Assembly (NCBI RefSeq): GCF_009846525.1
Contig: NZ_CP024621.1
Coordinates: forward strand, 1,302,001-1,366,000
Source of the DNA: Halomonas meridiana
GTDB taxonomy: Bacteria > Pseudomonadota > Gammaproteobacteria > Pseudomonadales > Halomonadaceae
DNA length: 64,000 bases
Direction: 5' to 3'
Shown here: piece after piece, positions 35,079 to 57,413 of the stretch
Layout: every line of letters begins with the position of its first letter
How positions within the stretch are numbered: position 1 is the stretch's first letter
Position numbers and translations under genes: made by a program
Notes under the pieces: model-generated
What the model was told of the DNA's origin: nothing
Databases searched by the model: none
Seen by the model: the letters and a program-made list of their open reading frames with translations, nothing else

Positions 35079-35165
35079 TGGTGCCCGGAGCCGGACTTGA
35101 ACCGGCACGGAGTTACCTCCGAGAGATTTTAAGTCTCTTGCGTCTACCAATTTCGCCATCCGGGC
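35079..35165 (-). tRNA. leuZ: tRNA-Leu (anticodon UAA)
   Basis: An 87-nt gene including an encoded CCA. The acceptor GCCCGGA pairs with TCCGGGC. The anticodon loop ACTTAAAAT reads UAA, and a long variable arm (CTCGGAGGTAACTCCG) marks a class II leucine tRNA. It is last in a Gly-Cys-Leu row identical in order to E. coli glyW-cysT-leuZ behind pgsA. Confidence 0.97.
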
Positions 35166-35204
35166 AGTGTATCGGTGCCATGAGAGTCATCGCTACACTG
35201 AAAA

Positions 35205-35278
35205 TGGAGGCTGGAGTCGGAATCGAACCGGCGTACACGGAGTTGCAGTCCGCTGCATAACCACTCTGCCATCCAGCC
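35205..35278 (-). tRNA. cysT: tRNA-Cys (anticodon GCA)
   Basis: A 74-nt gene with encoded CCA. The acceptor GGCTGGA pairs with TCCAGCC and the anticodon loop ACTGCAAC reads GCA. U73 before CCA, the cysteine discriminator, is present. Middle gene of the three-tRNA cluster. Confidence 0.97.
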
Positions 35279-35304
35279 TAACAAGTCATTGGTATCAACC
35301 AAAT

Positions 35305-35379
35305 TGGAGCGGGAAAAGAGATTCGAACTCTCGACCCTCGCCTTGGCAAGGCGATGCTCTACCACTGAGCTATTCCCGC
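35305..35379 (-). tRNA. glyW: tRNA-Gly (anticodon GCC)
   Basis: A 75-nt gene with encoded CCA. The acceptor GCGGGAA pairs with TTCCCGC; the anticodon loop TTGCCAA reads GCC. It follows pgsA by about 100 nt and is first in the tRNA row. Confidence 0.97.
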
Positions 35380-38812: not shown

Positions 38813-38888
38813 GGGGCCTTAGCTCAGCTGGGAGAGCGCAACACTGGCAGTGTTGAGGTCAGCGGTTCGATCCCGCTAGGCTCCACCA
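38813..38888 (+). tRNA. tRNA-Ala (anticodon GGC)
   Basis: A 76-nt gene with encoded CCA. The acceptor GGGGCCT pairs with AGGCTCC and includes the G3-U70 wobble that identifies alanine tRNAs. The anticodon loop CTGGCAG reads GGC. It stands alone and is followed by its own terminator. Confidence 0.97.
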
Positions 38889-46476: not shown

Positions 46477-49400
46477 TTAATGTTGGCGGGTGCCACGCTC
46501 GGTTAGCCAGTGGGTGAGGGCGTCGAACGGCATGGGCTTGGCGAACAAATACCCTTGTAGCACGTCGCACTCCAGCGAAAGGAGCTGCTGCTCCTGTTGG
46601 CGGGTTTCTACCCCCTCGGCAACCACGTTGAGTTCCAGATGGTGCGCCAGGGCGATGATGCCTTGCACGACGGCGGCATCTTTGCTGTTGTCTTCGATAT
46701 TAAGGATAAAGCTGCGATCGATTTTGATTTTGTCGATGGGGAGATGGCGCAGATAGCTAAGGCTTGAGAACCCCGTGCCAAAATCGTCGATCGCAATACT
46801 GATGCCCATGCCGCGCAAGGCGTGCAGCGTATCGATGGCGGCGTCGGTGTCGTTCATCAAAATGCCCTCGGTCAGCTCTAGCTCAAGGGCGGTCGGCGGT
46901 AATCCCGTGACCTCCAGCGTTTTGCGTAGCGAGCTTAAAAAGCTAGGACGATGAAACTGCATGGGAGAGAGGTTGACCGCCATGCGACAGTCGCTCGATA
47001 GCAGCGGCTGCAGCTGTAAGAAATCCTTGGCGGCGCGCTCCATGACCCACTGGCTCAAGCCAATGATCTGTCCTGTCTCTTCGGCAATGGGAATGAACAG
47101 CGCAGGCGATATCGGCCCTTTGACGGGGTGGTTCCAGCGCACGAGCGCTTCGAACCCTCGGATATCGCCCGCTCGACCCAGCAGCGGCTGATAGTGGAGT
47201 TCGAACTGCTCCTGTGTGATGGCCTCTTGCAGGTCGTTTCTCAGCGTGACGCGCTGCGTCAGCTTTTGATTAATGTCGTGGGTGAAAGTTTGTAGCGTGT
47301 TGCGCCCTTGCTGTTTGGCTTTGTACATCGCCATGTCCGCTTGTTGCAGGAGCGCTGCAGGGTTTTCCAGGCCCTCATCGCTCAATGCGATACCAATGCT
47401 GGCGGAGAGGTAGAGTTCATGGCGATCAATACGATAGGGCTGGGCCAGCTCCAGGAGCAAGCGCTCGGCCACCTCTTGGGCCTGATGCGGCGCGTCCAAG
47501 TCGGGCAGCAGCAGTACGAACTCATCGCCGCCGAAGCGGCAGAGCGTATCCGAGGGGCGAATCACCTCTTCCAAGCGCCGTGCGACGCTGATCAATACTT
47601 GGTCGCCCACCGCATGGCCCAGCGTGTCATTGATCGGCTTGAACTCGTCCAGATCGATGAACAGCACCGCTAGCTGCTGACGGTGGCGTTTGGCGAGATC
47701 GACGTCATGGCGCAAACGGTCTTCGAATAGCGCTCGGTTGCCAAGCCCGGTGAGCGCGTCGTGCGTTGCATGAAAGGCCAGTTCGTTTTCGTGATCTTTG
47801 CGCTCGGAGATGTCGTTGATGATGCCGACGAAATGCGTGGCCTGCCCGTCTTGCGCCCGTACCGGAGAAATAAAGACGTTGTTCCAGAAGGCGCGACCAT
47901 CCTTGCGGTAGTTGCGAATCGTCAAGCTGATGTCCCGCTGCTGAAGAAGCGCGTCACAAATCTCCTGCACTTGTTTGGGGTCGGTATCCGGCCCCTGTAA
48001 AAAGCGGCAGTTTCGGTGCCGCACGTCATCAAAGTCGTAGCCGGTGATCTCTACGAACGCTGGGTTGACGTAAATGATCGGGAAATCGTCGTTTTGCGCC
48101 TCACAAATCAAGACGCCGTTACTGCTCGCCTCTAGGCTGCGTTGAAAAATGCGCAGCTGCGCTTCATTGAAGCGCAGTGCGGTCATCTCTTTCACCACCC
48201 CATACACGCCGACCACCGTTTCCATGACCACGGTCGGCAGAAACGAGATATCGACGAAATGTAGCTCGCCCGTTTGGCTGGGCAGTTCGATCTCGAAGCG
48301 CTGTGATACGCCGGTGAGGGCTTGGCTAAAAACCTCATTGATCGGCTCGCGCTGTTCAGTCGGCAGCAGACTGTACAGGTGTTGGCCGATAATATCGGCT
48401 TCGCTCATGGACAGCAGGGTCAGCAGCGACTGGTTCACGCTGAGGAAGTAGCCGTCGACATCCAGCGAAAACACGCCGTCCGGGTTTTGGGTAAACAGTG
48501 AACGAAAGCGCTGCTCGCTGTCTTGTAGCGTTTGCTGATGGTTATAGCGCTCGATGGCCAGACGCATTAGCCGCAGCGCGCTAGGTAGCAGCGATGACTC
48601 TACCTCGAGTGCGCGGTGGCCTGATAAGGGCTGGTCCTGTTTCGACAGCAAGACTACCGCCCCTAACGGCAGCGCCTCTCCGCTGCTTAGTATATGAACG
48701 GTGGCGCTAACGTAGCCGTACTGGGCGGCCATCTGGCTAAACGCCGTCGACGCGCTGGGGGTTATCGGCAAGTTCGCCGCCATCTCTCCTTGCTGATGCA
48801 GCTCGGTCGCCAAGGTGATGAGGCTCTCGTTGAAGGGCATGGATTCCTGCAAGGCAAAGGGAAGGCTGCAGGAGAGCAGCTCCACTCGGTAGGCCGCAGC
48901 GTTGTCCAGTCGCCATATCGCGGTGTGGCAATGGGGGCTTTGTTGCTCCAACAGTCGGCAAATCTGTAATAGCGTGGCGCTGCACGGCTCGTCGCGGGCA
49001 ATCATGGCCTGAATGCGGTGCTGGTCCTCCAGTGCCTCTTTGGCTTTGGCAAGTTCCAGCGTGCGCTGTGCCCGTGCGGCAATCAACGCCAGGCTCAGGA
49101 CTAGCTGGTAGGTGAGCAGCAGGCCCGCCACGCCAATACCGGCGGCAATGAAATTGGCCAGCTCGAACACGGAGGAAGGGGGCGGCCAAAGGCTCAAATG
49201 CAGCGCAGCTCCGCCGGGTAACCCCAGGTGCTGCTCACTGAGCGGTGTGCTCTCCTGTAACGCTGCTGGCACTCCAGGCGCGATGCCTGGAGCGAGGATA
49301 TGCCCATCGGGATGGCTGATCGAAAGCGTGAAGGCTTGATCTGCAATCTGGGTCTCTTTGGCCAGCAGATAAGCGATATCGATGACTGCCACGAGTTGGT

Positions 49401-50454
49401 AGCGCTGCTCGACGGAAGGCTTCAACGCCAGCAGGGCGATATTGGGACGCTCGGGATCAGGAAAGAGCCACTGGACGGATTGCTGCTGTTGATTGAGCCA
49501 GCGTAATACCGGCAGGCTAACGAGCTGATCATCCAGCCATAAAAGATCGCGGCCCTGCTGAGCGCGGCGCCAAACGTCCCGGGCCAAGGGGGTGAAATAG
49601 GCCAGCGCCAGGATGCTGGGATAGTCGTTCCAGTAGCGAGCGACTTCCCGTTGGCGGGACGCCTCGTCTTCGAAAACGTCTTGCCAGCGTTCGGCGAGAC
49701 GCTCGAGTACGATGGTGCGAGAGTTGAACGTTCGTTCGATACTGGTCGTTACGCTGGCGAGCGTATTGTGTGCTTCGGCTCGGGTCGTTTCGTGTTGATT
49801 CCAACTGATCAAAAACCACGCGCTCATACTCAGCGCCACCCCCACGATGCCTGCGGCGACAGCGGCTTTGCTCAGGGAGGTCGCCAAATGCGGCACGTGT
49901 CGGCTGACCATGATCATGGCCAAACCAAACGAGAAGCACAGTAGCCCCGGTAACAGCGCACTGGCACGGGGGAACCATCTAGGCAGTGGAAGGCCCGCCT
50001 GATAGAGCAGCGTCAAGCTGCCAATGCCCCACAGCACGATGCCACCCACTTGCCATACGCGACGCTGCCAAGTGCCCTGGGGGCCTACCCACAAACAGAA
50101 GGCCGCCAGCAGTAAGGTCGGCGCGGCTTGAGTGGGAAGTCTGGGCTGGCCGGTGAGCCAGGAGACGCCGGTGTTGCCTGCGATGACGTTATGCACTGCC
50201 GTGTAAAACGCCAATATCAATAGGGCAAGGCCTGCGATGCGCCGCCAGCGCGGAGCGTTGGCCATGACGGCACTCAAGCCAAGGCCTGAGAGCAGAATGA
50301 CCAGCGAGCTGTCGGGCAGGACGGCCAGCGCCTGAGGCTGAGGCAAGCTGGGAACGACGCCGAATACTAGGCTAGCGCCACCGATGATAACGGTGGTGGT
50401 TAGCAGCATGAGTAGGCCCGTTTGTAACGCTAGCTCACGGTTGTTTACATCCAT
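46477..50454 (-). CDS. membrane PAS-LOV-GGDEF-EAL protein (putative blue-light c-di-GMP enzyme)
   Basis: A 1325-residue protein. Order: about seven transmembrane helices (residues 8-215), an extracytoplasmic sensor region (217-425), another helix (430-455), a GAF-like region (470-630), a PAS (645-755), a LOV domain (768-888), GGDEF (about 895-1055) and EAL (1065-1320). LOV has the photoactive Cys816 in HRNCRFLQGPDTD and flavin ligands N848 and N858, but Ile879 replaces the usual Gln. GGDEF is intact with an RPSD inhibitory site five residues before it. The EAL site is complete (EALVRW, NLSPMQF, ELTE, DDFGTG, KIKID, AEGVE). It could both make and degrade c-di-GMP. Confidence 0.9.
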   Translation of the reverse strand: MDVNNRELALQTGLLMLLTTTVIIGGASLVFGVVPSLPQPQALAVLPDSSLVILLSGLGLSAVMANAPRWRRIAGLALLILAFYTAVHNVIAGNTGVSWLTGQPRLPTQAAPTLLLAAFCLWVGPQGTWQRRVWQVGGIVLWGIGSLTLLYQAGLPLPRWFPRASALLPGLLCFSFGLAMIMVSRHVPHLATSLSKAAVAAGIVGVALSMSAWFLISWNQHETTRAEAHNTLASVTTSIERTFNSRTIVLERLAERWQDVFEDEASRQREVARYWNDYPSILALAYFTPLARDVWRRAQQGRDLLWLDDQLVSLPVLRWLNQQQQSVQWLFPDPERPNIALLALKPSVEQRYQLVAVIDIAYLLAKETQIADQAFTLSISHPDGHILAPGIAPGVPAALQESTPLSEQHLGLPGGAALHLSLWPPPSSVFELANFIAAGIGVAGLLLTYQLVLSLALIAARAQRTLELAKAKEALEDQHRIQAMIARDEPCSATLLQICRLLEQQSPHCHTAIWRLDNAAAYRVELLSCSLPFALQESMPFNESLITLATELHQQGEMAANLPITPSASTAFSQMAAQYGYVSATVHILSSGEALPLGAVVLLSKQDQPLSGHRALEVESSLLPSALRLMRLAIERYNHQQTLQDSEQRFRSLFTQNPDGVFSLDVDGYFLSVNQSLLTLLSMSEADIIGQHLYSLLPTEQREPINEVFSQALTGVSQRFEIELPSQTGELHFVDISFLPTVVMETVVGVYGVVKEMTALRFNEAQLRIFQRSLEASSNGVLICEAQNDDFPIIYVNPAFVEITGYDFDDVRHRNCRFLQGPDTDPKQVQEICDALLQQRDISLTIRNYRKDGRAFWNNVFISPVRAQDGQATHFVGIINDISERKDHENELAFHATHDALTGLGNRALFEDRLRHDVDLAKRHRQQLAVLFIDLDEFKPINDTLGHAVGDQVLISVARRLEEVIRPSDTLCRFGGDEFVLLLPDLDAPHQAQEVAERLLLELAQPYRIDRHELYLSASIGIALSDEGLENPAALLQQADMAMYKAKQQGRNTLQTFTHDINQKLTQRVTLRNDLQEAITQEQFELHYQPLLGRAGDIRGFEALVRWNHPVKGPISPALFIPIAEETGQIIGLSQWVMERAAKDFLQLQPLLSSDCRMAVNLSPMQFHRPSFLSSLRKTLEVTGLPPTALELELTEGILMNDTDAAIDTLHALRGMGISIAIDDFGTGFSSLSYLRHLPIDKIKIDRSFILNIEDNSKDAAVVQGIIALAHHLELNVVAEGVETRQQEQQLLSLECDVLQGYLFAKPMPFDALTHWLTERGTRQH

Positions 50455-50769
50455 TAGGCAGGAATCATCTAAAGCAGGGAGAGAATCAGACTGGCTGTCG
50501 CCAAGCCGGGTGGCGTTCGAATAATCTCAGCGAAGTAAGGGGCTGGCAAGGCGCATTAGGTCGTAACCCGCCATATTTTAACGACAGCGTTAAAAAGAGG
50601 CAGGCCATGTTAAGGGGTGTAACGACCTTGTCGCCTAGGTCGGCGAAAAGACCTGGCTCATAAATGATAAACAGCGGTCAGGCGGGCAGTTTATCGAGCG
50701 AGAACATATAGCTTTGCTATCGAGCTGTGTAGACTGGGGAAAAGACCTATCGATTCGTAAGGGAACCTC
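50455..50769. promoter_or_regulatory. divergent control region of two c-di-GMP genes, with palindrome
   Basis: This 315-bp gap separates two divergent c-di-GMP enzymes and must hold both promoters. The clearest feature is TTTTAACGACAGCGTTAAAA at 50576-50595, an 8-bp inverted repeat with a 4-nt spacer, which could be an operator. I see no small gene or convincing sigma-70 pair; the last 60 bp before the plus gene are AT-richer. Confidence 0.45.
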
Positions 50770-53700
50770 ATGACGGCTGCAACCTCTGCTCCTCTCTCGC
50801 CTATAGTGGTGGGTATTGGTGCCTCGGCGGGCGGGCTCGAAGCCATTTCGAAATTGATCCGCTCGCTTGATCCTGCCTTGCCCATGGCGTTTGTCGTGCT
50901 GCAGCATGTCTCCCCTACCCACAAGAGCATGCTGGTGGATATTCTCAGCCGCGAAACGCGCCTAAGGGTGACGCGGCTCGAAAACCTGCAGCGCCCCGAA
51001 CCGGGGGTGATCTATGTCGTGCCCGCCAATACCAATGCCACGATTAAAGACGGCGTGTTTTACACCACGGCGGCATTGCCCCATGTGGTGCCCAAGCCGT
51101 CGGTGAACGATTTCTTCTCCTCGTTGGCCAGTGATGCCCACGAAGCCTCTGTCGGCATCGTGTTGTCAGGCACGGGGTCTGACGGTACCGCCGGGCTGCG
51201 GGCGATCTTGGCCGCAGGTGGCATTACCATGGTGCAAACGCCCGGCAGCGCCAAGTATGAGGGAATGCCCCAATCGGCGATCGATGCTGGGGTCATCGAT
51301 TATATCCTCGACGTCGAAGAGATGGCCCCACGATTGGCAGAGCTGGCGAGGTTGGAGTGCGCGAGTCTTGAAGGCAACCAAGTCGCGGTGCCGCAGCGCT
51401 TACTGACGCTATTGAAAGAGCGCCGCCAGCTCGATTTTTCAGGCTATAAACCGGGCACTATCAGCCGTCGGCTTCGCCGCCGTATGGTGGCGACCCAGGT
51501 CGCCGACATGCAGCAGTACGTCGCGCTGGTGGAGCAGGACCCCGCTGAGTTGGAGCAGCTTGGGCGCGATATTCTTATCTCCGTCACCGCCTTTTTTCGC
51601 GATGCCAGTGCCTTTGACGCGCTCAAGAAAGTCATCCATCCCATGGTGGAGCAAGTCGATAAGGGGCCGCTGCGCATCTGGGTGGCGGGCTGTGCCACTG
51701 GCGAGGAGGCTTACTCCATCGCACTGTTGGTGGCCGAGTCGAAACGTGTGCTCGATAGCGAGGCGGTGGTGCAAGTCTTTGCCACGGATATCGACGAGGA
51801 AGCGTTGGAAATCGCCCGGCGTGGGCGCTACCTAGGGGCCGCGTTGGAGGCGTTACCCCAACCGCTGTTGGCGCGCTACTTCACGGCCCATGAGCACTTC
51901 TATGAAGTGAATAAAACGCTGCGCGACATGATCGTGTTTGCCAAGCACAATTTGGTCGATGACCCGCCGTTTTTGCGCTTGAACCTGATTACTTGTCGTA
52001 ACGTTTTGATCTATTTCGATAATGAGCTCCAGTCTAAAGTTCTGCAGCGGTTTCATTTCGGTCTCAAAGTCAAGGGCGCGCTGTTTCTGGGGCGCTCTGA
52101 GAGCATTGGCCACTCCGAGGCGCTGTTCACGCCTATCGATCGACGTGAACGGCTGTTTGCCAAGCAGGGCGAAAGTCGCGACGTGCTGGATAACGCACCG
52201 ACCTCTAGGCGGACAAACTCTCCTCTAAAGCGCAGAGACCGCGATATGCAGCAGCTGCTGGATGCACTGGTAGCGCACATGGGCGCTACCGTGGCCTTGT
52301 GTGATGCGCAAGGCAACGTGCAGCACACGGCGGGCGACGTGAAGCGGTTCTTGCGTTTTCCCGCCGGGCGCACCCAAGTGGGCATTCAGGATGTCATGAT
52401 CGATCCTTTTCGCGGCGAGCTGATGTCGCTACTGCACCAGTTCAACAAGCAGCGGGAGCCCCAGGTGGGGCGGCGTCGACGATTTGACGACGAGTGGATG
52501 CGGCTCAGCGTGCGCGGGCTCACCGAACAGGAGGACGACCGGCGTATCCTGATCGTGTTGGCACCACTGGCTGAGATCGAAAAGCCTGCCAGCCTGCCGC
52601 TCGATCAGTTGATGGAGCCACCTCTGCTCGATGGTGCCGATAGCTTGGAAGATGAATTAGAAGCCACCCGGGAACATCTTCAATCACTCATCGAAGAGTT
52701 GGCGACCGCCAATGAGGAGATGCAGTCGCTCAACGAAGAAGCTCAGGCCTCCAACGAGGAGCTTCAGGCTACGAACGAGGAATTAGAGGCCTCTAACGAG
52801 GAGCTCCAAGCGACCAACGAAGAGCTGATCAGCCTAAACGAAGAGCTCAACGTCAAAACGGGCGAATTGACCAAGCTCAACGATGAGTATACCTACCTCT
52901 ACGACGCGCTCGATTTTCCGCTCATGGTGTTCGATAGCGAGCTGTGTCTCAAACGCTATAACGCCCCCGCCGCGCGCTCGTTCAGCGTCCGCCCAACGGC
53001 GCTATTGCGCCATGTGTCGGGGCTACGTCTACCCACCGTCTTCAACGACCTGGAAGAGGCGCTGACAAACGTCTCTCGACAGGCCTCGCCGGTGGAGAAC
53101 GTCGTCGAGCTAGAGGGGCGGTTACTACAGCGACTGATCACCCCCGGCGTGAACCAGCAAGGGGAGGTGGAGCTGCTCGTGGTGACGCTGATGGACGTGA
53201 CCGACCTCAGTCAGGTGCAAGCGAAGCTCCGGCAGTCCCAGGCGCAAATGCAGGCGTTGATGGAAAACAGCACGGTAATGATTGCGCTGAAAGACCTCAA
53301 CGGGCGCTATACCTTTGCCAACCCGCAGTTTCTCACTGCCTTTGGTCTCACCCAAGAGCAACTGATCGGGCGCAACGTGTTCGAGGTGTTTCCCGACGTT
53401 TACGCGGGCTCGGTATGGGCGAGGGACATGGACGCGGTGCGTTTTCAGCGGATCGTGGAGGCCGAGCACACGCTGCCCAGCGAGCACGGCACTACGCGGA
53501 TCCTTTCCTGTGTGCATCAGGTGCTGCGCGACGAGCAGGGTCACCCCTACCTCATTTTGACCGAGTCCGAAGACATCACCGCGCGCAAACACGCCGAGCG
53601 AGACATGCTGGTCGCCTCCAAAGTGTTCGAACAAGCGGGCGAGGCCATCGTCGTGATCAATGCGCTCGGTGACATTCAATCGGTCAACAACGCCTTTAGC

Positions 53701-55326
53701 CGTATTACCGGGTACCCCGCCAGCGCCGTCGAGGGACAGCCAGCGCTGCCTTTGCTGTATTGCGAAGACGAAAACCAGGGCGGGGGGCAGACGCCAGACA
53801 CCTGCTACGTGCTGTGGGAGATCGTCAAACAGCACGGTTACTGGCAAGGCGAGGTGTTCAACAAGCGCCGAGACGGCACACTGTTTTCCCAGTGGCTAAC
53901 GCTCAACATGATCGCCCCGGACAGCCAAGACGATGGGCTGTGTGTGGCGGTCTTTTCAGATATTACGCATATCAAGGAGTCTCAGCGCCAGGCTGAGTAT
54001 CTGGCCACTCACGATGCGCTGACCGGTTTGCCCAATCGCACGCTGTTTCAGGACCGGCTTCAAGTGGCGATTGCCCATGCCAAACGCAGCGAGCAGCTCA
54101 GCGCGCTGATGTTTTTGGATTTGGATAACTTCAAGAGTATTAACGATACCTTGGGGCATGACGTGGGGGATGAGCTTCTCATCCAAGTGGCCAACCGGCT
54201 CAAAGAGTTGGTACGCGATATGGACACCGTTGCCCGACTGGGAGGCGACGAGTTCACGATCATCCTCGTGGATACCTCTATCGAAGGTGCAGAGCAGGTC
54301 GCCAAGCGTATTGTCGAGGCGCTTTCCAAGCCCTTCGAAGTACGCCGTCATGCACTGTTCGTGACGTCCAGTATTGGGCTGGCGTTCTGTCCGGACGATG
54401 GTGACGACGTGGCAGGGCTCACCAAAGCCGCCGATACGGCAATGTACCGAGCCAAAGAGAACGGCCGTGACCGCTTCGAGCTGTTCAAACCCGAGTTGCA
54501 GGCGCGCTTGATGCGCGATGTCGCTATCGAGCATGCGCTGCGTGAGGGCATGGAGCGCGGCCGTTTGCAGCTGGTGTATCAGCCGAAGTTCGTCTGCGTC
54601 GACCAGGGCCCGCTATGCGGGGCGGAAGCGCTGCTTCGCTGGACGGATCCCCATTTGGGGCAGGTCAGTCCCGCCGACTTCATCCCGGTGGCCGAGGCGA
54701 CCGGACTGATTCTGGAGTTGGACCGCTACGTAGCTTTGCAGTTGATCCGCCAACTGGCCAAGTGGCGTGACGAGGGGCTGACGCCGCCGCCGATCGCCAT
54801 GAACGTGTCGGCGCGCAGCTTTCAGGAAGAGCGCTTCATCACACACCTGTTCAGCTGCTTGAAGCAGTACCGAGTGCCTTACTCACTGGTTCAGGTAGAA
54901 ATTACCGAAAGCACGCTGGTGGACCGGTCTAGCTCGGCGCTGGGTAACATTGAAAAACTGCGCGAAGCGGGCATCAAGCTGGCGGTGGATGATTTCGGTA
55001 CCGGCTACTCGTCGCTGGCCTATTTGAAGCGGCTGCCGCTGGCCGAGCTAAAAATCGATAAGAGCTTCGTGGACGGTTTGGGTGGCAACGATGAGGGGGA
55101 TCAAGCCATTGCGCTGGCTATTTTGGGGATGGCCAAGGCCTTGGGAATTCGCACCGTAGGAGAAGGGATGGAAACGTCGGCACAATTAACGTGGTTGATT
55201 GAAAATGGCTGTGACTTTGTTCAAGGTTACCTGCTTTCGATGCCGCTAACGCTGGCCGAATTTACGACATTGATCGGCGCCAGCGCCTCTTCTAACGACG
55301 ACCCCTCCCAGGATGCCTTGTCATGA
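50770..55326 (+). CDS. CheB-CheR-PAS-GGDEF-EAL fusion protein
   Basis: A 1518-residue soluble protein. Residues about 10-195 are a CheB methylesterase without receiver (triad Ser19 in GASAGG, His46 in LQHVSP, Asp in SGTGSDGTAG); about 205-475 a CheR methyltransferase (SVTAFFRD, AGCATGEEAYS, NLITCRNVLIYF); then a PAS-like stretch, a long coiled coil (about 626-700, repeating NEELQATNEELEAS), three PAS domains (about 704-1070), GGDEF (ARLGGDEF near 1157, with RDMD inhibitory site) and EAL (AEALLRW, MNVSARSF, EITEST, DDFGTG, LKIDKSF, GEGMET). All catalytic motifs look intact. It overlaps the phytochrome gene by 4 nt (ATGA). No chemoreceptor or CheA is nearby. Confidence 0.92.
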   Translation: MTAATSAPLSPIVVGIGASAGGLEAISKLIRSLDPALPMAFVVLQHVSPTHKSMLVDILSRETRLRVTRLENLQRPEPGVIYVVPANTNATIKDGVFYTTAALPHVVPKPSVNDFFSSLASDAHEASVGIVLSGTGSDGTAGLRAILAAGGITMVQTPGSAKYEGMPQSAIDAGVIDYILDVEEMAPRLAELARLECASLEGNQVAVPQRLLTLLKERRQLDFSGYKPGTISRRLRRRMVATQVADMQQYVALVEQDPAELEQLGRDILISVTAFFRDASAFDALKKVIHPMVEQVDKGPLRIWVAGCATGEEAYSIALLVAESKRVLDSEAVVQVFATDIDEEALEIARRGRYLGAALEALPQPLLARYFTAHEHFYEVNKTLRDMIVFAKHNLVDDPPFLRLNLITCRNVLIYFDNELQSKVLQRFHFGLKVKGALFLGRSESIGHSEALFTPIDRRERLFAKQGESRDVLDNAPTSRRTNSPLKRRDRDMQQLLDALVAHMGATVALCDAQGNVQHTAGDVKRFLRFPAGRTQVGIQDVMIDPFRGELMSLLHQFNKQREPQVGRRRRFDDEWMRLSVRGLTEQEDDRRILIVLAPLAEIEKPASLPLDQLMEPPLLDGADSLEDELEATREHLQSLIEELATANEEMQSLNEEAQASNEELQATNEELEASNEELQATNEELISLNEELNVKTGELTKLNDEYTYLYDALDFPLMVFDSELCLKRYNAPAARSFSVRPTALLRHVSGLRLPTVFNDLEEALTNVSRQASPVENVVELEGRLLQRLITPGVNQQGEVELLVVTLMDVTDLSQVQAKLRQSQAQMQALMENSTVMIALKDLNGRYTFANPQFLTAFGLTQEQLIGRNVFEVFPDVYAGSVWARDMDAVRFQRIVEAEHTLPSEHGTTRILSCVHQVLRDEQGHPYLILTESEDITARKHAERDMLVASKVFEQAGEAIVVINALGDIQSVNNAFSRITGYPASAVEGQPALPLLYCEDENQGGGQTPDTCYVLWEIVKQHGYWQGEVFNKRRDGTLFSQWLTLNMIAPDSQDDGLCVAVFSDITHIKESQRQAEYLATHDALTGLPNRTLFQDRLQVAIAHAKRSEQLSALMFLDLDNFKSINDTLGHDVGDELLIQVANRLKELVRDMDTVARLGGDEFTIILVDTSIEGAEQVAKRIVEALSKPFEVRRHALFVTSSIGLAFCPDDGDDVAGLTKAADTAMYRAKENGRDRFELFKPELQARLMRDVAIEHALREGMERGRLQLVYQPKFVCVDQGPLCGAEALLRWTDPHLGQVSPADFIPVAEATGLILELDRYVALQLIRQLAKWRDEGLTPPPIAMNVSARSFQEERFITHLFSCLKQYRVPYSLVQVEITESTLVDRSSSALGNIEKLREAGIKLAVDDFGTGYSSLAYLKRLPLAELKIDKSFVDGLGGNDEGDQAIALAILGMAKALGIRTVGEGMETSAQLTWLIENGCDFVQGYLLSMPLTLAEFTTLIGASASSNDDPSQDALS

Positions 55327-56117
55327 CCCAACCCCGTGGCTTTATCCATCAGTGTGAGCAGGAGGAGCTGCACCTCTCAGGCGCCATTCAGCCGCATGGC
55401 GTACTGCTGATCACCGATGCCCAAGGCGTGGTATCTCACTGCTCGGCCAACGCCGAGACCCTGTTGAGCGACGTCGAGCCTCCTGTCGGACTCGGTCAGC
55501 CGCTGCCGGATTGTCTGCACGATGTGACCGCTGCGCTGCCTGAACTCGGCCCAGGCGAGCGCTATATTGGCCAGTGCGATACGCCTAAACAGGAGTTCGA
55601 TGTGGTGGTCACCAGCCATCACGGTAACGGTTGGATCTACGAGCTGTACCCTGTCGATGCCCATGCTGCGCCGATGGCGGCCAGCAGCCATGTGGCTGCC
55701 GTGCCCGAGAGTGGGGAGGAGCTGGCGACCCAGTGTCAGGCGTTGATGGAGAACTTGCTGGCGCTCAGTGGCTTTGATCGGGTGCTGTACTACCGCTTCA
55801 TGCCGGAGGGCGATGGGGAAGTGCTGGCCGAGGCGCGTCGCGAAGGCGTGACGGGCAGCTATCAGGGACTGCGTTTTCCAGCCAGCGATATTCCCTACAT
55901 TGCGCGTCAGCTCTATTTGAAAAACCCTTGGCGCACGATTCCTGATGCCACCGCCGCCCCCGTGCCGATTTACGCGGCGCAGGCCGATGCCACACCCGAT
56001 TTAAGCTTCGTCGATTTGCGCAGCGCTTCGCCGGTGCATTTGGAGTACATGGCCAACATGGGCGTGGGCGGTGCTATTTCGCTACCCATTATTCAAGGGG
56101 GGAGCTGGATGCGTTGA
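55323..56117 (+). CDS. bphP: bacteriophytochrome, PAS-GAF part (frame ends at G6 tract)
   Basis: A 264-residue frame holding the first two domains of a biliverdin phytochrome. Cys11 in CEQEELHLSGAIQPHG is the bilin-attachment Cys of bacterial phytochromes. GAF has FPASDIPYIARQLYLKNPWR and LRSASPVHLEYMANMGVGG. The frame breaks after IIQGG: with one more G in the G6 tract it would continue GELDALISCHAAEPKQL into the PHY frame that follows. The break is thus a one-base deletion, a slippage site or a sequencing error. Start overlaps the preceding stop (ATGA). Confidence 0.88.
   Translation: MTQPRGFIHQCEQEELHLSGAIQPHGVLLITDAQGVVSHCSANAETLLSDVEPPVGLGQPLPDCLHDVTAALPELGPGERYIGQCDTPKQEFDVVVTSHHGNGWIYELYPVDAHAAPMAASSHVAAVPESGEELATQCQALMENLLALSGFDRVLYYRFMPEGDGEVLAEARREGVTGSYQGLRFPASDIPYIARQLYLKNPWRTIPDATAAPVPIYAAQADATPDLSFVDLRSASPVHLEYMANMGVGGAISLPIIQGGSWMR
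56097..56102 (+). repeat. G6 homopolymer at the phytochrome frame break
   Basis: Six G where seven (or four) would join the PAS-GAF and PHY frames into one phytochrome. Such a run is prone to replication slippage and to sequencing error. Confidence 0.8.
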
Positions 56118-56812
56118 TCTCCTGCCACGCCGCAGAGCCCAAGCAGCTCACGGTCAGCCAGTTGGATTCCATGCGTGCTCTGAGCGAGGGCTTCAACCTT
56201 CGCCTGCGTGACTTCAAGGCGCGGCGGCGCCAGCAGGTGATCGACGGTCTTCAGCGCCATTTTGACCACGCCAAAACGGTACTGATGCGGCACGGCGAGC
56301 TGGAAAGCGCTTGGGAAGAGTTGAGTGACTGGCTCATGGAGACCTTCGCTGCGGATGGGGTAATGTTGCAGATGGGCGAGGAGTACTACCAGCACGGTGT
56401 GGGCTTGACGCCTCACGTCATGAGCATGGTGGCGCAGCAGGCAGCGGCCGAGGCTACCCATGTCTGGCTTAGCGACTCTTTGCAGCGTGACTGTCCTGGC
56501 ATGCCGCTCAGTGAGGTGGCTGGCGTCGCTTTGATCAGCGATCTCCCTCTTGATCAGCACCACACTGTCAATCTCTACTTGTGTCGTGTGGAGCATATTT
56601 ACGACGTCACGTGGGGGGGCAATCCCGATAAGCCAGTGGACTACCGTGATGGCGGGAGCGTGGTCTCGCCGCGTCGCTCCTTCGAAGCATGGGTCGAGCA
56701 GCGCTTGGGCCACAGCCGCCCTTGGACGGCCAGTACCCGCCTTTATCTATTGAAGCTGCGTGCGCTTCTTCAGCAGGCCAAAAGCATGCCCTGGCGTCAC
56801 GATGGCGAGTGA
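56114..56812 (+). CDS. bphP: bacteriophytochrome, PHY part (separate frame)
   Basis: A 232-residue frame, opening at a TTG that overlaps the previous TGA, which continues the end of GAF (LISCHAAEPKQL) and a complete PHY domain. The PHY tongue is intact: WGGNPDKP and PRRSFEAW. The frame ends about 30 residues after the tongue, with RLYLLKLRALLQQAK, so there is no histidine kinase, GGDEF or other output. Joined, the two frames make a photosensory module of about 496 residues. Preservation of PHY argues that the break is recent, reversible or an artefact. It lies directly before the heme oxygenase gene. Confidence 0.82.
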   Translation: MISCHAAEPKQLTVSQLDSMRALSEGFNLRLRDFKARRRQQVIDGLQRHFDHAKTVLMRHGELESAWEELSDWLMETFAADGVMLQMGEEYYQHGVGLTPHVMSMVAQQAAAEATHVWLSDSLQRDCPGMPLSEVAGVALISDLPLDQHHTVNLYLCRVEHIYDVTWGGNPDKPVDYRDGGSVVSPRRSFEAWVEQRLGHSRPWTASTRLYLLKLRALLQQAKSMPWRHDGE

Positions 56813-56822
56813 GGCAGCGCCC

Positions 56823-57413
56823 ATGACACTGGCCCGGCGGCTCCGGCAGGCAACGAAAGCCGACCATCACCGCGTCGATCATCACCCGGCGCTGGCGTCG
56901 CTGCTGAGCCCCCGGCTGGACATGGCACGCTACGGCGTCGGGCTTGCCGCGCTCTATCCCGCCATTGCCGGGCTAGAGCGGGCGCTGACTCATACGGTGG
57001 GTGGTGACCCAGGCCACTACGCATTGACCCTGCGTGAGCCGCTGCTGCGCCATGACATCAGGCGGCTGGGCCAAACAGTGCCTTCAGCGTGGGCGTTCAC
57101 CGCGCCTGTCAATACGCATGAGCGGGTAGGCATGCTCTACGTGCTGGAAGGCTCGCGGCTGGGCGGCCACTTTATAGGGCGCCATGCTCAGCGCATGCTG
57201 GGGGAGCAGGTGCCATGCCGTTTTTTTACCGACATGCCGCTGACTCCCCACGCCTGGGCTGCTTTTTGGCACTATGCAGAGGTTGCGTGTCCTGAGCACG
57301 CATGGCCTGACGCCGTGAGAGGCGCTCGGCAGGCCTTCGGAGAGTTCATCCAAGCACTCACAGCGGCGCTGCCCGCCGACCACGTTACACCAACCCCAGC
57401 GCCCATAGAATGA
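56823..57413 (+). CDS. bphO: heme oxygenase, BphO type (biliverdin-producing)
   Basis: A 196-residue heme oxygenase expected to open heme to biliverdin, the chromophore of the phytochrome just upstream. LRQATKADHHRVDHHPAL carries the proximal His region and YVLEGSRLGGHFIGRH the distal-helix glycines of the family. The ATG behind GAGG, 8 nt away, is chosen; an ATG seven codons earlier overlapping the phytochrome stop is possible. The 3' end overlaps the convergent peptidase gene by 29 bp. Pairing of bphO with bphP is typical. Confidence 0.88.
   Translation: MTLARRLRQATKADHHRVDHHPALASLLSPRLDMARYGVGLAALYPAIAGLERALTHTVGGDPGHYALTLREPLLRHDIRRLGQTVPSAWAFTAPVNTHERVGMLYVLEGSRLGGHFIGRHAQRMLGEQVPCRFFTDMPLTPHAWAAFWHYAEVACPEHAWPDAVRGARQAFGEFIQALTAALPADHVTPTPAPIE

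Follow-up and report, generated by a model that had tools for sequence, protein, structure and literature searches.

The three overlapping genes of the conserved unit in Table 1 probably encode a two-protein red/far-red light receptor, a reading of the sequence to which we assign a probability of about two in three. In the proposed mechanism, the heme oxygenase would produce biliverdin, the output-less PAS-GAF-PHY phytochrome would bind it and switch with light, and the CheB-CheR-coil-PAS-GGDEF-EAL protein, as the output partner, would alter c-di-GMP. Because the phytochrome carries no output domain, the CheB-CheR protein is likely to be its output. Gene content, gene order, overlaps, co-occurrence, an output swap, and conserved chromophore and catalytic residues were observed directly in the window (the whole 64,000-nucleotide stretch of Halomonas meridiana DNA analyzed here) and its relatives. 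The initial annotation had grouped a sensor for red light, the enzyme that makes its chromophore, and a c-di-GMP enzyme bearing CheB and CheR domains, and gene content across relatives bears these out as one conserved unit.

Table 1. Positions of the features discussed, numbered from the first letter of the window.
Feature	Position	Strand	Remarks
Membrane PAS-LOV-GGDEF-EAL protein	46477..50454	-	1325 aa; outside the conserved unit
LOV domain of the 1325-aa protein	about 47803-48120	-	adduct Cys kept, Gln replaced by Ile
Divergent intergenic region, LOV gene to unit	50455..50769	.	315 bp
Conserved unit: cheB-cheR-PAS-GGDEF-EAL, output-less phytochrome, heme oxygenase	50770-57413	+	overlapping genes
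CheB-CheR-coil-PAS-GGDEF-EAL fusion	50770..55326	+	first gene of the unit; 1518 aa
CheB domain of the fusion	about 50809-51336	+	
CheR domain of the fusion	about 51394-52140	+	
Glu-rich coil of the fusion	52648..52869	+	between CheR and PAS domains; four EExxA[S/T] motifs
GGDEF domain of the fusion	about 54004-54474	+	
EAL domain of the fusion	about 54535-55245	+	
Phytochrome, whole span	55323-56812	+	PAS_2, GAF, PHY
Phytochrome frame 1	55323..56117	+	N-terminal biliverdin Cys, PAS, most of GAF, PASDIP motif
G run	56097..56102	+	site of the phytochrome frame break, inside GAF
Phytochrome frame 2	56114..56812	+	end of GAF, PHY with PRRSF tongue motif; no output domain after
Heme oxygenase (bphO-like)	56802..57413	+	likely ATG 56802; tool ORF from GTG 56760

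Genes of the conserved unit

The domains named in the initial annotation are all present, but the phytochrome is split into two ORFs and the LOV gene lies outside the unit. In the fusion protein, the order is CheB, CheR_N, CheR, PAS domains, GGDEF, and EAL, and the catalytic motifs of CheB, CheR, GGDEF, and EAL are kept, including the CheB Ser-His-Asp and the CheR SAM motif, which we take to be the catalytic residues. The CheB triad is retained in 36 of the 37 readable unit-linked proteins (41 given) and the GGDEF/EAL motifs in nearly all relatives. One genome (G081) has lost the CheB catalytic residues while retaining the phytochrome, and at another locus (L133, a draft with frame problems) the CheB-CheR and PAS-GGDEF-EAL parts are separate ORFs.

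The phytochrome ATG and the CheB-CheR stop codon overlap, and the ATG of the heme oxygenase overlaps the phytochrome stop. Matches to PF08446 and PF00360 lie above their cut-offs, while GAF, the domain in which the frame is interrupted, scores 22.3 (cut-off 22.4); most close intact relatives show all three domains. The initial annotation had read a PAS-GAF-PHY module, which stands, without mentioning that its frame is broken. An intact, 99%-identical copy (P0003) has the N-terminal biliverdin Cys, PASDIP, the conserved His, and the PRxSF tongue, and the same motifs occur in the window spread over two frames. Across 50 standalone phytochrome rows, a set that includes some genomes twice, the Cys that holds the chromophore, the PASD[I/V]P motif, the His, and PRxSF are almost always conserved. 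The window protein is a candidate red/far-red sensor, for which bilin binding and photoconversion are predicted. An attached output domain is usual for bacteriophytochromes, if not universal. Here it is absent: the other 13 same-genus orthologues are open frames of 463-558 aa. The initial annotation was silent on the missing domain, which no same-genus relative has.

The two phytochrome ORFs overlap each other, leaving no single intact reading frame in this genome, whereas in all 13 remaining same-genus orthologues the frame stays open across the break site. An assembly error seems at least as likely as a strain pseudogene, because intact copies exist that are 99% identical to both window halves and because another gene is likewise split at a shortened G/C run. 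That run lies at one of the two frame splits found among 226 genes tested in 400 kb of this genome (1 of 233 in relative G033), a check that left out the phytochrome itself, whose reference gene spans the fetch boundary. The script used for this check also marked 15 and 19 genes as having an in-alignment stop. Programmed frameshifting is unsupported, since relatives keep one frame.

The heme oxygenase matches PF01126 at 37.9 bits (cut-off 23) and is the only match to this family in the whole genome (E 1e-3); its nearest solved HemO is 1j77 (E 1e-6). It adjoins the phytochrome/CheB-CheR pair in all 14 unit-bearing same-genus genomes. Outside the genus it does not always accompany the pair: across 21 Bacteroidota loci, within the stretch covered, only L139 gave a weak match (E 2e-5), and a Burkholderiales locus (L180) gave none at E 0.1.

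Pairing of the phytochrome with CheB-CheR proteins

Among 82 same-genus genomes, 14 carry the phytochrome (E of 4.1e-65 or below), and exactly these 14 also carry the CheB-CheR-GGDEF-EAL protein. The two genes, with the heme oxygenase adjoining in every case, cluster far beyond chance. The clustering in relatives that the initial annotation proposed as a check holds for three genes; for the LOV gene it is only loose. A search for plasmid carriage gave no match.

For a wider comparison, we collected 53 loci by phytochrome similarity, one of them truncated (L016) and left out of the count. A standalone phytochrome adjoined a CheB-CheR fusion in 28/28 cases, including one contig (L008) visible from the CheR part onward, and an output-bearing phytochrome in 0/24. 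Fresh samples of 369, 345, 385, and 349 genomes, the first and last of which may overlap, gave 8/8 for further standalone loci (L131-L133, L138, L139, L180-L182; L180 and L181 matched on the CheR side only) and 1/56 for output-bearing regions, the lone exception (L169) having its CheB-CheR gene about 2.8 kb away. Three candidates of standalone length (L178 and L179, from G1311:C59 and C28, and L134, from G059) were judged by eye to be frame-broken phytochromes with an output and were removed before this count; no CheB-CheR match was found in their stretches. The tree needs two changes of state, and the two standalone clades are compatible with a single origin (AU p 0.491), so the tree does not establish several independent origins. 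Since these clades could share one origin, the 28/28 pairing represents no more than two independent events.

The partner's output is swapped between phyla, with HisKA-HATPase in the 4/4 Bacteroidota partners scanned and GGDEF-EAL in Pseudomonadota, and the gene order of the Bacteroidota pair is reversed relative to the window unit. Because Bacteroidota pair the same phytochrome type with a CheB-CheR-PAS-histidine kinase, the contact point is likely the CheB-CheR-coil-PAS part rather than the catalytic tail. We infer, rather than have directly seen, this contact, the light control of the partner, and the direction of the c-di-GMP change, and such fusion proteins themselves contain multiple PAS domains, which leaves room for the genes to be neighbors only, with the phytochrome acting elsewhere and the CheB-CheR protein sensing another cue through its PAS domains. 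Exact co-occurrence across 82 genomes, the overlap of the genes, and the recurrence of the pairing in another phylum with output swapped and gene order reversed make such independence quite improbable.

The neighboring LOV gene

We find the LOV gene to be a separate, partly decaying neighbor of the red-light unit. Its product has six hydrophobic stretches within the first 450 residues and perhaps a seventh at 736-754, and its LOV-like PAS domain matches a YtvA-family model (E 7.6e-39, residues 770-893), under that model's own cut-off for whole YtvA. The adduct Cys (NCRFLQ) is present and the active-site Gln position in the last strand is Ile; the domain may be a blue-light receptor with flavin binding and a photocycle. 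LOV receptors lacking the Gln can still function, the residue not being strictly required, according to the excerpted text of PMC9098866, where Ile, as found here, is a common natural substitution; unlike there, some orthologues here have additionally lost the adduct Cys.

The initial annotation had proposed a single evolved circuit in which the LOV protein, responding to blue light, and the phytochrome, responding to red, act on a common c-di-GMP pool. GGDEF, EAL, and DDFGTG motifs are indeed intact in both window proteins, 10 of the 12 judgeable unit-bearing genomes have the LOV gene beside the unit (with a chemoreceptor gene in between in three: L002, L205, and L206), and an interplay of phytochrome and LOV protein in Pseudomonas syringae swarming is on record (as cited in the excerpt of PMC8508746). 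But the LOV gene, transcribed separately and divergently, occupies the same position in 5/5 regions read from genomes that lack the unit (L198-L201, L207; seven such genomes found, five fetched), and G001, although it has the unit, retains only a remnant of the LOV gene. Nor is its light chemistry conserved: the Gln is missing in 17/17 orthologue rows (13 genomes), and the Cys is gone in 3/13 genomes (G033, G028, and G046). Unconserved LOV residues and the uncoupling of gene and unit lead us to reject a two-color unit as the unit of evolution, and we regard a joint circuit as very doubtful.

Possible roles of the CheB and CheR domains

As in chemotaxis, CheB and CheR might act on membrane chemoreceptors, whose methylation, and with it motility, would be set by light while c-di-GMP formed a second arm. 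In 3 of 14 unit-bearing genomes (G023/L002, from Vreelandella lutescens, G026/L205, and G040/L206; G017 and G045 stop at contig edges there), the gene immediately upstream of the CheB-CheR gene, on the same strand, encodes a chemoreceptor (MCP), and a search with this MCP yields 27 matches (27-41% identity) in the genome that contains the window. Against this, the MCP gene is nowhere in the 64-kb window, the same gene stands without the unit in G076/L201, and 17 of 21 pair-bearing Bacteroidota genomes, a Pedobacter among them, whose completeness is not given, show no MCPsignal match (E 1e-5). Because these 17 show no chemoreceptor, chemoreceptor methylation is probably not the general role of the CheB-CheR partner, and we consider this explanation unlikely.

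Alternatively, the CheB-CheR protein could methylate and demethylate its own Glu-rich coil under phytochrome control, yielding a light receptor with built-in adaptation. The catalytic residues of both enzymes are kept, partner genomes without MCPs exist, and the window coil contains four strict EExxA[S/T] motifs, which we liken to the methylation-site consensus of chemoreceptors, and five relaxed ones (shuffled mean 0.38, maximum 3). Yet the strict motif is missing from 5/5 Bacteroidota coils tested, which have 3-4 relaxed motifs against a shuffled maximum of 3, and the CheB residues are lost in one lineage. The coil is also not special to light-linked fusions, because the light-unlinked L169 protein has a similar one (one strict and four relaxed motifs, shuffled maximum 5). 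We treat self-methylation as a tentative and somewhat unlikely proposal. Its extension to a two-phylum class, in which an output-less phytochrome would control the fusion's carboxyl methylation of its own coil and so tune the gain of a swappable output, has about the same low probability.

Discussion

In the usual description, a phytochrome and its output share one chain. The nearest solved chains to the window phytochrome, 6g1y and 3g6o/3c2w, are listed as bacteriophytochromes. With bacteriophytochromes accompanied by bphO, which we take to be the BphP-BphO type, it shares PAS-GAF-PHY, the N-terminal Cys, PASDIP, PRxSF, and an adjoining heme oxygenase gene; it differs in having no histidine kinase or other output and a CheB-CheR fusion as its neighbor. 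Red light acting on c-di-GMP would be common to the window unit and PadC, a phytochrome-activated diguanylate cyclase, but PadC consists of a single chain that includes a coiled-coil linker (PMC9587094), whereas sensor and c-di-GMP enzyme are encoded here by separate genes, and the enzyme differs further by its CheB and CheR domains. A separate protein with PAS-GAF-PHY-GGDEF on one chain is encoded in the same genome (G000:C1, about 136781-138790).

A cheBR fusion appears in a gene-table footnote in the part of PMC8396549 consulted, and CheB and methyltransferase domains are included among counted histidine-kinase input domains in an excerpt of PMC4618731. As in the window protein, CheB-CheR is followed by a Glu-rich coil and PAS domains in the relatives that we examined; the window protein differs by its GGDEF-EAL end and its tie to a phytochrome. 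Among the listings and excerpts returned by searches of an open-licence literature collection, none describes a phytochrome paired with a CheB-CheR fusion.

The standalone phytochrome and CheB-CheR protein of Pseudomonadota and Bacteroidota would represent a natural split receptor whose output was swapped in evolution. They also raise the question of which function CheB and CheR domains serve in bacteria without an apparent chemoreceptor. If self-methylation were true, it would give a light receptor chemotaxis-style adaptation in which no chemoreceptor takes part, setting the gain of a swappable output, either a c-di-GMP enzyme or a histidine kinase.

Locus organization

All the parts named by the initial annotation were found at the locus: a membrane PAS-LOV-GGDEF-EAL gene, divergent from plus-strand genes for a CheB-CheR-PAS-GGDEF-EAL protein, a phytochrome (PAS-GAF-PHY) and a heme oxygenase (see table). 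Neighbouring plus-strand genes overlap, the phytochrome ATG with the CheB-CheR stop (55323-55326) and a heme oxygenase ATG (56802) with the phytochrome stop (56812), so that by sequence all three appear to form one transcription unit.

The window phytochrome is split over two frames, which part at a G run inside GAF. All 13 other same-genus orthologues pass this place in a single frame (463-558 aa), that of G021, a draft with several frame breaks, being cut later, at the tongue, and an intact protein cluster (P0003; 496 aa, 51 member sequences) is 99% identical to both window halves. Upon comparing 400 kb of the window's genome (G000) with the relative G033 to check assembly quality, we counted 2 frame-split genes in 226 versus 1 in 233, one of the two in the window's genome also lying at a shortened G/C run. 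There are hints of homopolymer errors in the window assembly, and the frame break is probably, if by no wide measure, an assembly error.

Features of the locus and of compared genomes (G, genomes; C, contigs; L, fetched regions; plain numbers, window positions)
Feature	Position	Strand
Membrane PAS-LOV-GGDEF-EAL gene	46477-50454	minus
CheB-CheR-PAS-GGDEF-EAL gene	50770-55326	plus
Phytochrome, then heme oxygenase	3' of CheB-CheR gene	plus
G run at frame break	56097-56102	
tRNA matches (four; three clustered)	35082-35379; 38813-38885	minus; plus
Second phytochrome, window's genome	G000:C1:136781-138790 (L135:4782-6791)	
Split gene at G/C run, by eye ABC-transporter ATPase	G000:C1, near 1469344	
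MCP gene between LOV and CheB-CheR genes	L002:3840-5342; L205:11703-13145; L206:11418-12851	
MCP gene, same site, without unit	L201:4735-6237	
LOV-gene remnant	L202:12208-12381	
LOV-gene orthologue, apparently V. hamiltonii	G017:C6:217566-220781 (L004)	
Degenerate-CheB partner	L204:7787-12211	
Split-ORF layout	L133:6459-13284	minus

Standalone phytochromes adjoin CheB-CheR fusions

Of 82 same-genus genomes, 14 have a phytochrome orthologue (E of at most 4.1e-65), and the same 14 carry the CheB-CheR-GGDEF-EAL protein (E 1e-200). In these relatives the phytochrome ends straight after PHY, without an output domain; all but one of the 120 best database matches listed measure 469-516 aa, in a search restricted to lengths 0.55-1.75 times that of the query, which favours like-sized relatives. 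Scanning contigs with the PAS-GAF part as query gave 53 loci, in which standalone (output-less) status was assigned by frame length and the truncated L016 was excluded. In this similarity-found set, the next gene was a CheB-CheR fusion for 28 of 28 standalone phytochromes, 9 in Pseudomonadota (GGDEF-EAL partner, upstream) and 19 in Bacteroidota (partner downstream); at L008, the contig shows the partner from CheR onward only. Of the 24 loci whose frames leave room for an output domain, none had a CheB-CheR neighbour.

Because this set was selected by similarity, we drew four genome samples, in which PF00360 matches occurred in 15/369 Gammaproteobacteria, 31/345 Bacteroidota, 32/385 Alphaproteobacteria and 37/349 Burkholderiales genomes, the first and last samples possibly overlapping. 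Leaving out the window's own phytochrome and the already counted centre G449, all eight further standalone phytochromes adjoin CheB-CheR sequence (L131-L133, L138, L139, L180-L182), with only the CheR side matched at L180 and at L181, the latter at a contig end with one stop in its frame. The 38 phytochrome matches in the 385-genome Alphaproteobacteria sample included no standalone frame. On visual inspection, three short frames (L134, L178, L179) were taken for output-bearing phytochromes with a broken frame, not for standalone ones. For output-bearing phytochromes (frames of at least 643 aa), CheB-CheR appeared in 1 of 56 fetched stretches (L169, ~2.8 kb from the phytochrome, heme oxygenase between), the regions covering 12/12 matches in Gammaproteobacteria, 30/37 in Bacteroidota (29 regions), 6/38 in Alphaproteobacteria and 9/44 in Burkholderiales. 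Fisher p values for the association were 2e-15 and 2e-9, relatedness being ignored. The passages and listings consulted in the open-licence literature (PMC5812497, PMC9098866, PMC8846402, PMC4618731, PMC8508746, PMC8396549, PMC7288161, PMC9587094) give no description of this pairing; an earlier one elsewhere is possible.

Nearly every one of 50 standalone rows, in which several genomes are represented twice, retains the chromophore Cys, PASD[I/V]P, His and PRxSF; the exceptions are L133, whose start falls in a different frame, L003/L058, truncated at the tongue, L182 (PDSDIP) and L039 (SCNH). Standalone rows form two clades, one each for Pseudomonadota and Bacteroidota (support 100* and 99* in the full tree, 100* each in the reduced set). 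As the AU test does not reject a single origin (p 0.491), the two clades may share one, and the tree supports no more than long conservation of the pairing with changed output.

The heme oxygenase follows the phytochrome in 14/14 same-genus unit-bearing genomes and was matched beside it in L131-L133, L181 and L182. The stretches searched around 21 Bacteroidota loci gave one weak match (L139, E 2e-5), and that fetched for L180 gave none at E 0.1. CheB-CheR protein and phytochrome make up the unit, joined in Pseudomonadota by heme oxygenase, an inconstant member of the pairing. A second, PadC-like phytochrome of the window's genome (PAS-GAF-PHY-GGDEF) presumably shares the unit's heme oxygenase, the only PF01126 match in that genome at E 1e-3.

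The partner protein and its possible substrates

The partner ends in HisKA-HATPase in 4/4 Bacteroidota proteins scanned and in GGDEF-EAL in Nitrincola and the window, and gene order is reversed between Pseudomonadota and Bacteroidota. The window protein and nearly all relatives retain the GGDEF and EAL motifs (exceptions: SGDEF in L133, KALLRW in L003). CheB Ser, His and Asp are kept in 36 of the 37 readable among 41 unit-linked rows (L004, L008, L180 and L181 are cut); in L204 of G081, CheB is degenerate and has lost its catalytic residues, with CheR, GGDEF-EAL tail and phytochrome kept. In L133, a draft whose frame problems bear on this layout, CheB-CheR and PAS-GGDEF-EAL appear to be separate adjacent ORFs, their order swapped, ahead of the phytochrome and heme oxygenase genes.

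Chemoreceptors are one possible target of CheB and CheR. Immediately 5' of the CheB-CheR gene, 3 of 14 unit-bearing genomes (G023, G026, G040) carry a membrane chemoreceptor (MCP) gene, the contig stopping at this point in two of the 14, and MCP matches in the window's genome number 27. That MCP gene is missing from the 64-kb window. In Pseudomonas aeruginosa, a c-di-GMP receptor is reported to inhibit a CheR (PMC7288161), which shows that coupling between CheR and c-di-GMP can occur. Alternatively, the two domains act elsewhere, as 17/21 Bacteroidota genomes with the pair gave no MCPsignal match, a control set having matches in 7/14. The Glu-rich coil between CheR and PAS carries four EExxA[S/T] motifs in the window, the form of chemoreceptor methylation sites. 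Strict motifs number 2-4 in each of 10/10 Pseudomonadota coils tested; five Bacteroidota coils have none (3-4 relaxed), and the unlinked L169 coil has one strict and four relaxed. From these counts, self-methylation of the coil is conceivable if unlikely, and such a coil is not confined to light-linked fusions.

The LOV gene as a separate neighbour

LOV-gene orthologues (at least 64% identity) occur in seven same-genus genomes without the unit. In 5/5 fetched unit-less regions (L198-L201, L207), the LOV gene adjoins the S9 peptidase gene found at the flank of the unit in the window, an MCP gene lying between the two in L201; a fixed site thus either holds the unit or lacks it. G001 (L202) keeps the unit intact beside a short LOV-gene remnant, neither LOV gene nor flanks were seen beside the unit in G081, and contig edges fall at the site in G017 and G045. 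In the G017 orthologue, the match covers only residues 1-643 and 892-1322, and the PAS-LOV part is apparently absent.

The active-site Gln is replaced by Ile in 17/17 orthologue rows listed (13 genomes), and G033, G028 and G046 have another residue in place of the adduct Cys; a paralogous group keeps both (18/18 rows). Since LOV receptors without Gln can still signal (PMC9098866), the window LOV may sense blue light. As a conserved input of the locus, blue light is contradicted by the unit-less LOV sites, the G001 remnant and the Gln/Cys losses: the LOV gene is a neighbour of separate fate.

Overall reading

Of the two-colour c-di-GMP locus proposed in the initial annotation, the red sensor, its partner and the chromophore enzyme held as conserved, and the LOV gene proved not to belong to the unit. 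The best reading, with a probability of roughly 0.67, is a red-light receptor built from two proteins and acting through c-di-GMP, the inconstancy of heme oxygenase weighing slightly against it. What is conserved is a sensor and its partner, together with the enzyme for the chromophore, as a variant on phytochromes and CheB-CheR proteins of known kinds.
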